Source: Alcanivorax sp. (GTDB lineage Bacteria > Pseudomonadota > Gammaproteobacteria > Pseudomonadales > Alcanivoracaceae). From it: a stretch of DNA of 32,355 nucleotides. Positions within the stretch are counted from its first letter, which is position 1. The number at the start of each line of letters is the position of its first letter. The notes below the pieces were generated by a model, which was not told the origin of the DNA, searched no databases, and worked only from the letters and a program-made list of their open reading frames with translations. A program made the position numbers and the translations under genes. The stretch is taken from assembly GCF_014762765.1 (NCBI RefSeq), contig NZ_JABURH010000064.1, positions 1-32,355 of the forward strand, written 5' to 3'. Shown here in pieces: positions 1,501 to 21,446 of this stretch.

Positions 1501-2145
1501 TTACACCACAGCAAAGGCCCCGGGTAAATGCTGGCGCAAAGTGAGCAGGTTTTCTTCCTGAACCGCCATTGAACCAAAACAATTGGCCATTGTACCGGCA
1601 TAGCGCAACCCGTCTTTCTTTATCGCTTCAGCGGTAAGCAGGGCATGATTGATGCAGCCCAGCTTCATGCCCACCACCTGAATCACCGGCAGTTCCAGTT
1701 CGGCAGCAAGGCCGGACAACATCTCCCGATCATTAAGCGGCACCCGCCAACCACCGGCACCTTCGATCAGAATCAGGTCCGCCTTGTGGGCATTCAGGGC
1801 GCCACGTACATAGCCCGCCAGACGCGCCAGGGTAACCGCTTTGCCTTCCTGCTGGGCGGCGATATGTGGCGCTACTGGCGCTTTCAGTGCCACCGGATTA
1901 ACCAGCTCATAGGGCAATGTCACCGAACTGGCTGCCATCAGCTGCAGGGCATCGTCATTACGCCAGCCCTCCGCCGTTTCCTCACAACCCGCCGCCACCG
2001 GCTTGAGTCCATAGCAGCTCAACCCGGCCTCGCGGGCCCGCTCCAGCAGACGACAACTCACCCAGGTCTTGCCGACTTCGGTGTCGGTGCCGGTGACGAA
2101 GAAGACGCCCTTGAGGGCGGGAAGAGGTGGCTTCTGATTTTCCAT
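1501..2145 (-). CDS. bioD: Dethiobiotin synthetase BioD
   Basis: ATP-dependent carboxylation of 7,8-diaminopelargonate to dethiobiotin, the penultimate step of biotin synthesis; cytoplasmic homodimer. 214 aa, usual for the family. The P-loop GTDTEVGKT is at 19-27, and the IEGAGGWRVPL segment matches the family's GAGG motif. ATG 2145 is chosen because AAGGA lies 6 nt upstream and the protein then starts just before the conserved VFFVTGTD. A longer frame to 2220 would add an Arg/Asp-rich leader that runs through a REP-like hairpin and is probably not translated. It is the last gene of bioB-F-H-C-D, separated from bioC by 154 bp that hold REP-like DNA. Confidence 0.96.
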   Translation of the reverse strand: MENQKPPLPALKGVFFVTGTDTEVGKTWVSCRLLERAREAGLSCYGLKPVAAGCEETAEGWRNDDALQLMAASSVTLPYELVNPVALKAPVAPHIAAQQEGKAVTLARLAGYVRGALNAHKADLILIEGAGGWRVPLNDREMLSGLAAELELPVIQVVGMKLGCINHALLTAEAIKKDGLRYAGTMANCFGSMAVQEENLLTLRQHLPGAFAVV

Positions 2146-2193
2146 AGCTATCCTTGGATTGAACTTATCGCTTTGATCACCCTGCGGTCGATT

Positions 2194-2234
2194 CCGTGCT
2201 TCGCACGGTTCGTCCCTCAAGAGGAACTCCTACA
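2194..2234 (-). repeat. REP-like palindromic sequence between bioC and bioD
   Basis: Read on the minus strand, the stretch starts with TGTAGGAG, followed by a small hairpin (TCCTC-TT-GAGG), then CGAA and a second hairpin, CCGTGC-TTC-GCACGG at 2194-2208. GTAGGAG followed by a hairpin and CGAA is the layout of REP elements in Pseudomonas and relatives. The next 45 bp (to about 2280) hold another degenerate palindrome (GGCC/TAGAC arms). It lies inside the bio operon, so it would be part of the mRNA between bioC and bioD. Repeat status needs a genome-wide count. Confidence 0.5.
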
Positions 2235-2299: not shown

Positions 2300-3121
2300 T
2301 CAAAGCTTTTCCGCTTCCAGAAACAGCACATTCCACGTCAACGGCAAGCCCTGACCGGTCCGTTTGGTTTCATACTCGGCCACCATGGCTTGCCAGGCAT
2401 GCTTGCCGGTCAGGCCGCTGGCGCCACTGACATGGTCGGCGCCGGTGGCCTTGAGGCGGCGGGCAATCTGTTTGACCGATTCGTAATATTCCACCATCAC
2501 CTGTTGCTGAATTTGCACGTCAGCAAACCCGACCCGCAGTGAGGCTTCTTGCCAGTCGCCCAACGTTGGCAAGGCATTCACATGGGGGCGATGATTCACC
2601 GCTTGCCAGCTCTGGCTCAATTCCCGCAGGGAGCCCGCCAACGGCACCGCCAGCAACAGTCGACCGCCCGGTGCCAGCACCCGATGCACTTCCGCCATCA
2701 CCCGGGTCGGGTCACACCATTGCAAGGCAAAACAGGAAAACACCAGCCCCTGGGACCCACTCTCCACGGGCAGCGATTCTGCATCGGCGCACAGCGGCTG
2801 GTAATGGTCGTTGAATCGACCCCGCTCGGCGGCCTCATTCAGCATATCGGAAGACAGATCCACCGCCTGCCACAATACGCCTGGCAGGGCCTGTTGCTGG
2901 GCGCGGGCAAACGGTGCGGTGGCGCAGCCCAGATCCAGTGCAGACGGTGTCACCAGCTGCGCCGGCAAGCGCTGCACCAGGGAGCGCCCTACCGCCAGCT
3001 GCAACGCCGCATGGGCATCATAGCTGCGCGCGGCACGACTGAAGTGCTGGCTGACCGCCGTCTTGACAGGTCTGTCCACGGCAGCCTCAGTGGACCAGTC
3101 GATGGTCGCGATAGAAGTCAT
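2300..3121 (-). CDS. bioC: Malonyl-ACP O-methyltransferase BioC
   Basis: SAM-dependent methyltransferase that methylates the free carboxyl of malonyl-ACP so that fatty acid synthesis can build pimeloyl-ACP methyl ester. 273 aa from ATG 3121. SAM motif I, ALDLGCATAP, is at 61-70, and the BioC N-terminal block FSRAARSYDAHAALQ at 27-41. The ATG start overlaps the 3' end of bioH by 35 bp and has only a weak GGGCGG upstream. A GTG at 3079 in the same frame sits 5 nt after TGAGG, which overlaps the bioH stop; it would give 259 aa, closer to E. coli BioC (251 aa). That GTG may be the true start. Function and operon position are clear. Confidence 0.93.
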   Translation of the reverse strand: MTSIATIDWSTEAAVDRPVKTAVSQHFSRAARSYDAHAALQLAVGRSLVQRLPAQLVTPSALDLGCATAPFARAQQQALPGVLWQAVDLSSDMLNEAAERGRFNDHYQPLCADAESLPVESGSQGLVFSCFALQWCDPTRVMAEVHRVLAPGGRLLLAVPLAGSLRELSQSWQAVNHRPHVNALPTLGDWQEASLRVGFADVQIQQQVMVEYYESVKQIARRLKATGADHVSGASGLTGKHAWQAMVAEYETKRTGQGLPLTWNVLFLEAEKL

Positions 3122-3899
3122 AGACCGCCCGGGTAAAGGTATCGGGAGCGGACAGGAAAGGCACATGGGCCACCTGCTCGATCAGTGCGGTGCGACCCTT
3201 CTGGATCAGGGGTTCCACCGCCGCCATGGCCGCCGCCGGTACGATATGGTCGTGCTCGCCAAACACCATCAGCACCGGCATGGATAACGCTGACAGGGTG
3301 TCACGCAGATCCGTATCGCGGAGGATATCAAGCCCGCCTCGCAGGGCTCTGGGCGCCGGCAGGCCGCAGAAATAGAGAATTTCTTTCAAGCGCGCAGTGT
3401 CTTCGCGCATGGCCGCGCTGCCCTTGCAGTTGAGGGCCAGGAAGCGCACCAGAGTACCTTCGTGGTCTTCATCGAACAGCTCGGCAAACTTGGCCAGGAT
3501 GTCCGCCTTCATGGCCGGCTCCCAGCCCGCTGCCGCGGTAAAGCGCGGCGAGGTGGCCACGGTGACCACGGACTGCACCCGCTGCGGCGCCTTCTCGGCC
3601 ATGGCCAGTGCCACCAGCCCGCCCAGGGACCAGCCCAGCAGATGGGCCTGTTCCGGCATGATGGCCAACACCTGGTCGGCGAGGAAGTCCAGGGTGTAGT
3701 CATCATTGGGCAGCGGGCTTTGCCCCATGCCCGGCAGATCCACCACGGTGACCCGGAACCGCTCCAGTAATGCCGGCACAATGTCGTCAAAGACAATGGC
3801 ATGCAGACCCCAACCATGGATCAGCACCACGTCCTGGGCATCCGCATCCGCGACGCCAGTGGCTTTGTAGGTGTTATGGAAAGGGATCAGCTTGGGCAT
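3087..3899 (-). CDS. bioH: Pimeloyl-ACP methyl ester carboxylesterase BioH
   Basis: Alpha/beta-hydrolase that removes the methyl group added by BioC, releasing pimeloyl-ACP for BioF. 270 aa. The oxyanion segment LIHGWG is at 26-31, the nucleophile elbow GWSLGG has Ser91, the acid is Asp217 in GEHD, and the catalytic His245 is in VAHVPF: a complete triad. AAGGA lies upstream of ATG 3899. A 75-bp gap from bioF carries one heptamer array (3913-3940), and the 3' end overlaps the annotated bioC start. The order bioB-F-H-C-D matches pseudomonads. Confidence 0.95.
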   Translation of the reverse strand: MPKLIPFHNTYKATGVADADAQDVVLIHGWGLHAIVFDDIVPALLERFRVTVVDLPGMGQSPLPNDDYTLDFLADQVLAIMPEQAHLLGWSLGGLVALAMAEKAPQRVQSVVTVATSPRFTAAAGWEPAMKADILAKFAELFDEDHEGTLVRFLALNCKGSAAMREDTARLKEILYFCGLPAPRALRGGLDILRDTDLRDTLSALSMPVLMVFGEHDHIVPAAAMAAVEPLIQKGRTALIEQVAHVPFLSAPDTFTRAVYDFYRDHRLVH

Positions 3900-3974: not shown

Positions 3975-5147
3975 TTAGCGTCCGACGTCAGATGTCCGAC
4001 ATCCGACCTTTTCCAGCGCCGCCAGCAACGCATCCACATCGCTTTCTTCATGGGCCGCCGACAGGGTGACCCGCAACCGGGCTTGCCCGTCCGGCACCGT
4101 GGGCGGGCGAATGGCGGTGATCAGAAAGCCCTGCTCGCGCAGTTGCTGGCTGAGGGCCATGGCCTGCTGATCAGCGCCGATCAGCAAGGGCTGGATCGGG
4201 GTAGCCGAGTCCATCAGGGTGAAACCCAATTGCGCGGCTCCGGCCCGAAAACGCTGAATCAACACAACCAGTTTTTCGCGACGCCAATGCTCTTCACGGG
4301 CCTTGGACAGACTCACCAGGGTGGCTGACGCCACCGCTGCCGGCATGGCGGTGGTATAAATATAGGTGCGCGCGAATTGTATCAGGATCTCGATCAATGC
4401 ATGGCTGCCAGCCACAAAGGCACCGGCGGTACCCAGCCCCTTGCCGAGCGTGCCCATCAGTACCGGCACCCGCTCATTGACGCCCTGTGCAACGACACTG
4501 CCACGCCCCTGGTCATCCAGTACGCCCAGACCATGGGCATCGTCCACCATCAACCAGGCATCATTGTCGTCGCAGGCAGCGGCATAGTCAGACAACGGCG
4601 CCACGTCGCCATCCATACTGAACACACCGTCAGTGACCACCAGCTTGCGGCGCGCATCACTGCGCTGCAGCTGACCCCGCAGGGCGGATGCATCGTTGTG
4701 GGCAAAACGGCGAAACCGGGCGCCACTGAGCAACCCGCCATCCAGCAGGGAGGCATGGTTCAGGCGATCATGAAAAACCGCATCGCCCTTGCCCAGCAAG
4801 GCGGTCATCACCCCCAGATTGGCCATGTAACCGTTGGAAAACAGCAACGCGCTTTCGCGACCGACATGGTCGGCCAGCGCCTCTTCCAGCTGCTGGTGGG
4901 GGCGCTGATGGCCGCAGACCAGGTGGGAGGCACCACTGCCGACGCCCCAGTCTGCCACGGCCCCCTGAAAAGCCTTGATCACCGCCGGGTCATTGGCCAG
5001 CCCCAGGTAGTCGTTGCTGCAAAAATTCAGATACCGGCGCCCGTCGACCACCGCATAACGGCCACAGGGGCCGTCCTGAATTACGGGTTGGCGGTAACGG
5101 TGCTGCTCACGGCGGGCCGCCAGGTCGGCAGCCAGATCGAAAGCCAT
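3975..5147 (-). CDS. bioF: 8-amino-7-oxononanoate synthase BioF
   Basis: PLP-dependent condensation of pimeloyl-ACP with L-alanine to 8-amino-7-oxononanoate. 390 aa. Visible are [10 protein letters not shown] (41-50), the substrate/PLP His131 in [13 protein letters not shown] with His205, and the Schiff-base lysine Lys236 in TLGKGLG. ATG 5147 lies 3 bp after the bioB stop, so the two are probably translationally coupled; the upstream Shine-Dalgarno is weak. Oddity: the last ten codons (peptide GCRTSDVGR and the residue before it) are read straight through a GTCNGAC heptamer array, so the C-terminal tail is repeat-derived and unlikely to be conserved. Confidence 0.95.
3980..4007. repeat. Heptamer array, GTCNGAC family (copy 2), inside the bioF 3' end
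   Basis: Four phased units on the plus strand: GTCCGAC, GTCAGAT, GTCCGAC, ATCCGAC. It codes the final residues of BioF and stops 3 bp short of the stop codon. The match in unit and phase to 3913-3940 rules out ordinary coding sequence as the source of the pattern. Confidence 0.75.
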
Positions 5148-5150
5148 GGC

Positions 5151-6314
5151 TCAATGTTCGGTGGCAGCGGGCCGGCCGGTGTCCTTGTCCAGCACATGTT
5201 TGGCCGGACGTTTGCCGCCCTCGCTCTGCGCCATGGCGTTATAGAACAGCCCGGCGTCTTCTGCCTGTTGCTCGGCCACCTGGGCCTTGATCACCTCTTC
5301 GTGGGCCTCGTCGGAGGCTTCATGGCGAAGGTCCAGAGGGTGAATACCCAGCCGGTTGAACAGCTGCTTGTCGTGGCTGGCTTCCGGGTTGTCCGTGGTC
5401 AACAACCGCTCGCCGTAGAAGATGGAATTGGCACCGGCCAGGAAACACAGGGCCTGGGCCTCATCATTCATCTCCTGGCGACCGGCGGACAGGCGCACAT
5501 AGGATTCCGGCATCAGAATACGGGCCACCGCCACGGTGCGGACAAACTCGAACGGGTCCAGATCATCCACATCCGCCAGCGGTGTCCCTTCGATTTTCAC
5601 CAGCATATTGATGGGCACGGATTCCGGATGGTGCGGCAGATTGGCAAGCTGCTGCAGCAGACCGACCCGGTCATCACGCTGCTCGCCCATGCCCACGATA
5701 CCGCCACAGCACACTTTCATGCCCGCATCGCGCACGTTGGCCAGGGTAGAGAGACGGTCGTTATAGGTGCGGGTTGTAATGACCTGGCCATAGTATTCCG
5801 GCGAGGTGTCCAGGTTGTGGTTGTAGTAATCGAGGCCGGCATCCGCCAACGCTTCCGCCTGCCCCTGATCCAGCATGCCCAGGGTCATGCAGGTTTCCAG
5901 TCCCAGGGATTTCACCTGACGCACCATATCCAGCACGTAGGGCATGTCCTTGTCGCGGGGGCTACGCCAGGCGGCCCCCATACAGAAACGCGAGGCGCCC
6001 TTGTCACGGGCGGCCTGGGCTTCTTCCACTACCCGCGCCACTTCCAGCAGCTTTTCCTTTTCCAGCTCGGTGTTGTAGTGGCCGGACTGGGAGCAGTATT
6101 TGCAGTCCTCCGGGCAGGCCCCGGTCTTGATCGACAGCAGAGTGCTCACCTGCACCGCGTTGGGATCGAAATGGGCCCGGTGCACGCTGGCTGCCTGAAA
6201 CAACAGATCGTTGAATGGCAGGGCAAACAGGGCGTCGATCTCACTGCGTTTCCAGTCATGGCGTACAGCAACGTCAGAGGCTGACGATTGGGCGGGGCTG
6301 GCGGTTGCGGGCAT
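5151..6314 (-). CDS. bioB: Biotin synthase BioB
   Basis: Radical SAM enzyme inserting sulfur into dethiobiotin to give biotin; carries [4Fe-4S] and [2Fe-2S] clusters. 387 aa against 346 in E. coli. The radical SAM motif is Cys67-x3-Cys71-x2-Cys74 ([11 protein letters not shown]). The extra length is an N-terminal stretch of about 20 residues and a polar C-terminal tail from about residue 350. ATG 6314 is preceded by GGAG 8 nt upstream. First gene of the operon, with a close divergent neighbour (comF, 42 bp away) and a candidate BirA-controlled promoter upstream. Confidence 0.97.
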
Positions 6315-6341: not shown

Positions 6342-6370
6342 AGGCTAGGGAGCAATATGGCACCTGTCAA
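6342..6370 (-). promoter_or_regulatory. Candidate sigma70 promoter of bioB
   Basis: On the minus strand a perfect -35, TTGACA (6370-6365), is followed by 17 bp and the -10 TAGCCT (6347-6342), which keeps the key T, A and final T. A start near 6335 would give a leader of about 20 nt including the bioB ribosome-binding site. The -35 lies inside one half of the candidate BirA operator. Confidence 0.6.
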
Positions 6371-7085
6371 CCTGATAGAGGCAACAAAAGTTTACTGTCG
6401 ATCATTTTTCGACCAGAGCTGCCGATGCCTGTTTTGTGGTCAGACACAGAGCAGCCGGGTCTGCCCAGCCTGTCTGGCATTACTGGCGCGCCTGGAAGGC
6501 CCGCTGTGTCGATGCGGCCTGCCCCTCCCAGCTGGCAGCCCTGGCGATGAGCTTCCGGCACCGCTATGTGGGCGCTGCCTGCGTCGCCCGCCTCCTTTTA
6601 CCGCCAGTCAGGCGCCGCTGCGCTACAGCTTCCCGCTGGATCGGTTGATTCGCCGTTACAAGTACCGCGGTGATCTGGTGGCGGAAAGGGGTATCGAGCA
6701 ACTGCTGGCGGACACGCCCTGCCCTTGGCCGGACATGGATGCCCTATGCCCACTGCCCGCCCACTGGCGACGCCGCTGGCAGCGGGGCTTCGACCAGAGC
6801 CAGCGGCTGACCGATCGTCTCGCCGGCCTGTGGAAAATGCCATCCTTGCCCGCACTGCAACGTCAACAATCAACCCCCATGCAACAAGGCCTCAGCCGTA
6901 GCCAGCGGCGGCGCAATCTGCGTGGCGCCTTTGCCTGCGCTCGGCCAGTCAGCGGGTTGAAGCTGGTACTGGTAGATGACGTTATGACCACCGGCAGCAG
7001 TGCCCGGGCAGCCAGTGAATGTCTGTTGCGCCATGGCGCCGCGGAAGTGCGGGTATGGACCTTGGCACGGACTCCGGAGCGTTGA
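6357..7085 (+). CDS. comF: ComF family phosphoribosyltransferase-like protein
   Basis: ComF-family protein: an N-terminal zinc-binding part and a C-terminal phosphoribosyltransferase fold. In naturally competent bacteria ComF is needed for DNA uptake or processing; its chemical activity is unsettled. 242 aa from ATG 6357, preceded by AGGGAG. Cysteine pairs are C24xxC27, C36xxC39, C51xC53 and C71xxC74. The PRPP loop LVLVDDVMTTGSS is at 204-216, ending GAAEVRVWTLART. A longer frame upstream to 6288 would overlap the bioB start and lacks an obvious ribosome-binding site. A gene beside bioB in this position is common in gammaproteobacteria. The window also carries a type IV pilus cluster, which would suit a competence role, but that link is inference. 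Confidence 0.9.
   Translation: MAPVNLIEATKVYCRSFFDQSCRCLFCGQTQSSRVCPACLALLARLEGPLCRCGLPLPAGSPGDELPAPLCGRCLRRPPPFTASQAPLRYSFPLDRLIRRYKYRGDLVAERGIEQLLADTPCPWPDMDALCPLPAHWRRRWQRGFDQSQRLTDRLAGLWKMPSLPALQRQQSTPMQQGLSRSQRRRNLRGAFACARPVSGLKLVLVDDVMTTGSSARAASECLLRHGAAEVRVWTLARTPER
6364..6397. promoter_or_regulatory. Candidate BirA (biotin repressor) operator
   Basis: Inverted half-sites CTGTCAACC (6364-6372) and AGTTTACTG (6389-6397) are separated by 16 bp. The proteobacterial BirA operator is TTGTAAACC...GGTTTACAA; in the E. coli bio operator, as I remember it, the spacer is also 16 bp. Matches are 7/9 and 6/9. The site is 50-83 bp upstream of bioB and covers its -35, so bound BirA would block the promoter. 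It also lies within the first codons of comF if comF starts at 6357. Confidence 0.6.

Positions 7086-15549: not shown

Positions 15550-21446
<5,897 letters not shown>

Follow-up and report, generated by a model that had tools for sequence, protein, structure and literature searches.

What does it mean for a repressor site to lie within the first translated codons of the gene next door, and does that site also serve the gene in which it lies? These questions are raised by a window of 32,355 nucleotides from Alcanivorax sp. (the whole stretch of DNA analyzed; contig NZ_JABURH010000064.1), in which bioB and comF are divergent, with ATGs at 6314 and 6357, respectively, and 42 bp between the two. 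We propose, with a probability of roughly 85%, that positions 6364-6397 represent the BirA operator of the bioBFHCD operon and that this operator is nested in, and constrains, the translated start of comF. The features concerned are as follows:

6342-6347, reverse strand: predicted bioB -10, TAGCCT, at 17-bp spacing, the top bioB-strand promoter match
6348-6352, forward strand: probable comF ribosome-binding site, GGGAG, abutting the bioB -10
6357-7085, forward strand: comF (ComFC-like, phosphoribosyltransferase fold, zinc cysteines), divergent from bioB; Pribosyltran 28.4 bits, cut-off 26.3
6364-6397, no strand assigned: putative BirA-type operator, CTGTCAACC-N16-AGTTTACTG, matching TTGTAAACC-N-GGTTTACAA at 13/18 and assigned on this match plus conservation
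6364-6372, no strand assigned: left half-site CTGTCAACC, holding the bioB -35 and falling in comF codons 3-6, giving Val-Asn
6365-6370, reverse strand: predicted bioB -35, TTGACA, inside the left half-site
6389-6397, no strand assigned: right half-site AGTTTACTG, holding the comF codons GTT TAC (Val-Tyr)

On direct reading of the window the half-sites are separated by 16 bp, and the operator overlies both the predicted bioB -35 and comF codons 3-14. A sequence-only reading had placed operator, promoter and comF at these positions, and all of its coordinates are correct; its equation of the operator with comF codons 3-14 is confirmed by the comF ATG at 6357. The letters of the operator are less telling than its position. 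Its bare consensus score of 13/18 is mediocre and is shared by a second place near 15845 of the window. When the window was resampled 30 times as a first-order Markov sequence and the best dyad score of each resample taken, that score was 12 in 11, 13 in 18 and 14 in one; since 13 or more was reached in 19 of 30, the sequence alone is no better than chance would give in 32 kb. Complementarity between the half-sites extends to 6/9 bases, a level found at 455 of 32,321 window positions, and a strict consensus search of the window returned no match. In the published summary the consensus is TTGTAAACC-N14/15-GGTTTACAA, and among the variants predicted is TTGTcAACC-N14-aGTTgACAA (PMC545781); the present spacer is one base longer than this range, and the match weaker. 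The core GTHAACY-N16-RGTTDAC, a pattern composed after seeing the site, occurs once in the 3.5-Mb genome of the organism, and the same core with N14-15 has no occurrence there. It is through its place and its conservation, not its bare sequence, that the dyad becomes convincing.

Regarding its place, the operator overlaps the predicted promoter of a biotin biosynthesis operon. The promoter was called by a scan with a hand-entered weight table, and its -10 is weak, with the T, the A and the final T alone fitting; the best bioB-strand match falls at this place in 17/17 same-genus loci (TAGCCT in 16, TAGTCT in L019). The genes of the operon, of which those after bioB are named from their order and family, run as follows:

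5151-6314, reverse strand: bioB (biotin synthase), the first gene of the operon; BATS 6.4e-30, Radical_SAM 5.4e-23
3975-5147, reverse strand: bioF-like aminotransferase class I/II
3087-3899, reverse strand: bioH-like alpha/beta hydrolase
2300-3166, reverse strand: bioC-like methyltransferase
1501-2220, reverse strand: bioD-like AAA_26 protein, start codon provisional

Among the matches listed, the nearest named loci by BioB are those of Alcanivorax sp. 24 (87% identity) and of an Alcanivoracaceae MAG (78%). Upstream of the organism's own bioA, which appears to be divided between two contigs, no second BirA site was found, the best score there being 10. The regulon thus gains no support from a second BirA site in the genome, which counts against it; the missing site does agree with P. 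aeruginosa, where bioBFHCD form an operon and bioA lies elsewhere and is described as exempt from BirA (PMC9894557).

Conservation was scored over 250 bp upstream of bioB in 97 loci, comprising 17 of the same genus (the present one included) and 80 named ones; one fragment without a bioB start (L020) and five loci with weak radical-SAM matches (L022-L026) had been left out. A dyad of at least 12 was found in 93/97 of these regions and of at least 13 in 84/97, as against 123/1869 and 16/1869 for other windows of the same loci and 225/1940 and 29/1940 for Markov resamples, although the loci in these and all later counts are related and probabilities are inflated as a result. Four loci score below 12 (L058, L064, L089 and L097), and in L064 a 16-match dyad sits farther upstream. 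The sequence GTCAAC, the reverse of the -35, stands in the left half of 91/97 loci, and in 90/97 a dyad scoring at least 12 has GTTGAC as the core of its left half-site. Within the genus, the operator and its 16-bp spacer are kept in 17/17 loci, with the first 8 of 9 bases of the left half-site invariant and AGTTTAC in the right half-site throughout. The site is therefore conserved upstream of orthologous bioB genes, in a palindromic series whose members mostly score 12-16/18, and the earlier assignment of a BirA-type operator to the bioB -35 draws its support from there.

Across the order, the exact pattern CTGTCAACY-N14-16-RGTTWAC occurs in 125 of 293 genomes, and the reversed pattern, a control counted by eye, in 9. 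From the pattern places listed, 87 regions were hand-picked and fetched, leaving aside the own genus and some others, so that they are not a random sample. The 2-kb stretch contained bioB in 81 of them, and 79 of the 81 carry the pattern at most 300 bp upstream of bioB in the expected orientation, the exceptions being L172 and L174. Because these regions were chosen by the operator pattern, they are uninformative on how common the operator is.

Several loci depart from the usual arrangement. In L064 (Pseudomonas sp. SJZ079) 289 bp separate the operator from the HDWK motif of BioB, compared with about 150 bp usually; the bioB leader may have received an insertion, or BioB may have a longer N-terminus. 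L172 carries a dyad by bioB in the opposite orientation, its TTGACA half facing the far side, and has no adjoining comF. A second BirA-like dyad stands 55-63 bp from the main one in L035 and L036 (Marinobacter), L190, L191, L069, L074, L082, L173 and L174, an example being CTGTTAACC-N14-GGTTTACGG (14/18) in L035, L036, L190 and L191; these may possibly be tandem operators. Two bioB frames hold one internal stop each (G324:C34, TGA; G314:C77, TAG), reflecting sequencing errors or decay.

An operator of this type calls for a BirA that can bind DNA. The genome encodes one (L001:1162-2166), with an N-terminal DNA-binding domain (HTH_11, 8.6e-14) followed by BPL_LplA_LipB and BPL_C, and it scores 73.1 bits against the curated TIGR00122 model (cut-off 70). 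With this helix-turn-helix present, an objection to the sequence-only reading from loss of the domain falls away, as does one from non-conservation, the half-sites being present in the orthologous gaps of all 17 same-genus loci. No operator pattern was found at the birA gene itself when the core was searched with N14-16. Besides the intact birA on C82, G000 has at the end of contig C197 (L002) a further match to the biotin-ligase family that contains an internal TAG; it is perhaps assembly redundancy or a remnant.

Pairing of BirA and operator across the order cannot be read from TIGR00122. At E <= 0.001 the model matches 236/293 genomes, of which 43 score above its curated threshold; the pattern is missing from many of the genomes that match, and of the 57 that do not match 20 were listed, so that the survey is no test of co-occurrence. 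The operator pattern is present in 7 of those 20 (G020, G028 and G036, which are 99-100% complete, and G027, G069, G083 and G098). In these seven, the organism's own BirA gave no match as a full-length query run without a positive control, and the ligase family PF03099 gave three weak matches, LipB-like in size. The probable cause is a gap in the assembly or a gene that was missed, although a very divergent ligase may be present instead. Since no birA was recognized in them at all, the seven genomes neither exemplify a BirA without its DNA-binding domain nor support the pairing.

The second half of our proposal, that comF is translated through the operator, depends on where comF begins. The protein bears the Pribosyltran domain and N-terminal zinc cysteines of the ComF/ComFC family, with CxxC pairs present and a DZR_2 match of 24.2 bits that is under the cut-off of 27. 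In the window its start lies 7 bp before the operator and its frame runs through it; in three relatives (L016-L018) AAGGAG stands at the position of GGGAG. A divergent comF is found in 78/97 loci of the first set, with the likely start before the operator in 56, inside it in 12, in the right half in 1, after it in 7 and far away in 2. Another 114 loci, made up of 27 picked by family and the 87 picked by operator pattern, include 108 with bioB and 96 with a divergent comF; in these 96 the start is inside the operator in 51, before it in 18, after it in 21 and far away in 3, while 2 have no start and 1 no in-frame CxxC.

After removal of 2 duplicates and of 7 loci with an operator score below 12 or no CxxC in the 200 bp past the operator, pooling gave 164 distinct loci with an operator and a nearby ComF body. 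Here a start is defined by rule, as an in-frame ATG, GTG or TTG from 40 bp before the operator. On this definition 135/164 loci have a likely comF start that precedes the operator or falls inside it (same genus 17/17, named 50/58, family 17/22, order 51/67); the codon is ATG in 125, GTG in 5 and TTG in 5. Most often, in 34 loci, the start is at +22 and the spacer is 15 bp long; the right half-site then opens with the G of the start codon, and the first residues of ComF are Met-Val-Tyr or Met-Val-Asn. The -5 start is the Pseudomonas type (32 loci) and the -7 start that of this window (15 loci); other positions among genera include -21, -15 and +10. In 19/28 Pseudomonas-type loci an in-frame stop stands directly ahead of the -5 ATG, and there is no other start before the zinc cysteines. 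Shorter spacers bring variants of their own: in L071 and L079 (Stutzerimonas; 14 bp) the only start is at +21, within the spacer, and L061 (Azotobacter; 14 bp) has in-frame ATGs at -30 and +15, its ATG at -5 meeting a stop in its own frame.

The reading frame supports true translation of comF through the operator. From the right half-site to the first CxxC the distance varies widely, and a single frame is kept in 128/135 loci (the exceptions being L027, L118, L119, L120 and L149 in frame 0 and L080 and L140 in frame 1). Among half-sites open in all three frames, 85/91 keep this frame, compared with 12/17 at loci whose comF begins past the operator (Fisher p 0.014, the loci being related). Moreover, 108 of the 135 have no further start codon before the first CxxC.

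If comF is so translated, the operator should have left its mark on the protein, and the comparison across loci supports this expectation, which the sequence-only reading had also voiced. Translation passes through the left half-site CTGTCAACC in each of the three frames, giving Val-Asn in Alcanivorax and kin (exact in 14/21 loci of that phase), Cys-Gln-Pro mostly in Pseudomonas (32/33) and Leu-Ser-Thr in Marinobacter-, Marinomonas- and similar loci (13/16), with unnamed loci assigned to groups by likeness. It follows that what is conserved is the DNA and not the protein. Indeed, in 28 Pseudomonas-type loci the left half is invariant at every base and codon position, and the spacer varies at all three codon positions. 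In the right half-site the codon GTT is used in 123/128 loci, as against 205/1434 Val codons in ComF bodies, and is followed by TAC (Tyr) in 87, AAC (Asn) in 40 and GAC in 1. A separate observation concerns position 39 of the Pseudomonas type (operator first base = 0), which is A in 28/28 loci although a third codon position; it sits in an A/T-rich run (TGGTTAAAAAAC), often giving the Leu codon TTA, and is perhaps a further DNA-level signal past the right half-site.

By the E. coli paradigm, when biotin is plentiful BirA-biotinyl-AMP would dimerize and bind both half-sites, and the bound repressor would cover the bioB -35 and shut off the operon. The operator would at the same time be translated, fixing ComF codons (Val-Asn and Val-Tyr here) that the protein must tolerate. 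A comF translated from 6357 would have to be transcribed from a point upstream, across the operator. Because comF is read through the operator, bound BirA would, by our conjecture, obstruct the RNA polymerase making comF mRNA or cover the comF promoter. Our proposal accordingly divides into two, according to whether such an effect on comF is of any consequence.

One version, which we judge rather probable, holds that crowding alone has put the operator into the comF codons, with no meaningful effect of BirA on comF. The 42-bp gap between the ATGs speaks for it, as do the freely varying amino acids of the spacer and a start codon that slides about the operator, its place tracking spacer length (the +21 starts of L071 and L079 at 14 bp). 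The operator is also retained where no divergent comF adjoins, scoring at least 12 in 17/19 such loci and at least 13 in 13/19, which shows that it does not need comF. Crowding does not by itself explain, however, a start in or before the operator in 135/164 loci, since a start directly past the operator, as the other 29 show, would avoid the conflict.

The other version, possible but in our view doubtful, is that BirA regulates comF together with bioB by roadblock or promoter occlusion, so that DNA handling by ComF is gated by biotin and the overlap kept for that reason. In its widest and equally tentative form, BirA would sit on the translated comF start across much of the order and gate comF by biotin status, a single stretch of DNA serving as operator, bioB -35, ribosome-binding region and coding sequence. 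The overlap does recur in many genera with comF starting at many positions; Shine-Dalgarno-like 4-mers precede the start in 88/135 loci, compared with 28% of shuffles, and one lies inside the operator in 22/34 loci of the +22 type. There is precedent, too, in the single E. coli operator that represses genes on either side (PMC5438404). Against this, no comF-strand promoter was recognized at a place shared between genera when 78 loci were scanned with a hand-entered weight table, and the operator survives where comF is non-adjacent or displaced. In L037, L053 and L203, which may represent a single event, comF starts 442-472 bp from an operator scoring 15, and the N-terminus of its protein differs and lacks Val-Tyr. 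We also considered a -10 that is shared or symmetrical and found no support for one.

That comF instead starts downstream of the operator, the open frame through the operator being accidental, is quite improbable. Later starts are the only ones in 29/164 loci, and L005 and L006 have an ATG and a TTG, respectively, just past the operator; yet the 108 loci without a start codon between the right half-site and the first CxxC, and the indels in that interval that preserve the frame, are hard to reconcile with such a start. Least credible of all is a chance dyad with no BirA site behind it, since the score, though ordinary for a randomized 32-kb window, leaves position and conservation unaccounted for.

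On our reading, in which the operator is nested in the comF start, a repressor site has been preserved even though it is translated in three different frames, and this would be a clean natural case of a DNA-level constraint on a protein terminus. For annotators, it suggests that an operator dictates the first residues of many ComF proteins (M-V-Y, M-V-N, CQP...VY). Should BirA also govern comF, Pseudomonas and its relatives would have a member of the DNA-uptake gene family linked to their vitamin status.

The founding study of BirA regulons by comparative genomics is reportedly that of Rodionov in 2002. Such regulons have been described for gamma- and deltaproteobacteria (PMC5343134), and the predicted proteobacterial ones (PMC5343134, PMC545781) share with the present case the consensus and the biotin-gene targets, as well as the lack of a pattern at birA reported there for most groups; the portions of these texts available to us mention neither comF nor overlap with coding sequence. 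Pairs of bioH and comFC (gntX) likewise set a comF-family gene divergent from a biotin gene, but there the neighbor is a freestanding bioH, in E. coli said not to be BirA-regulated (PMC5438404), whereas here it is bioB of a bioBFHCD operon. A gene-neighborhood figure (PMC9302846, Fig 1) places ComF in bioH neighborhoods with dots for BirA/BioQ motifs, its legend being silent on an operator inside comF. Among the matches listed from the open literature, as far as their accessible text goes, we found no description of an operator nested in the first codons of comF, and we claim no priority; the operator itself appears to be of a known kind and its nesting in the comF start an apparently undescribed feature. 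The closest known system is the bioA/bioBFCD operator of E. coli, where one operator over the bioB promoter is likewise bound by dimeric BirA-biotinyl-AMP (PMC5438404). The E. coli operator lies between two divergent biotin genes, whereas in the window bioB diverges from comF, whose coding start contains the operator.
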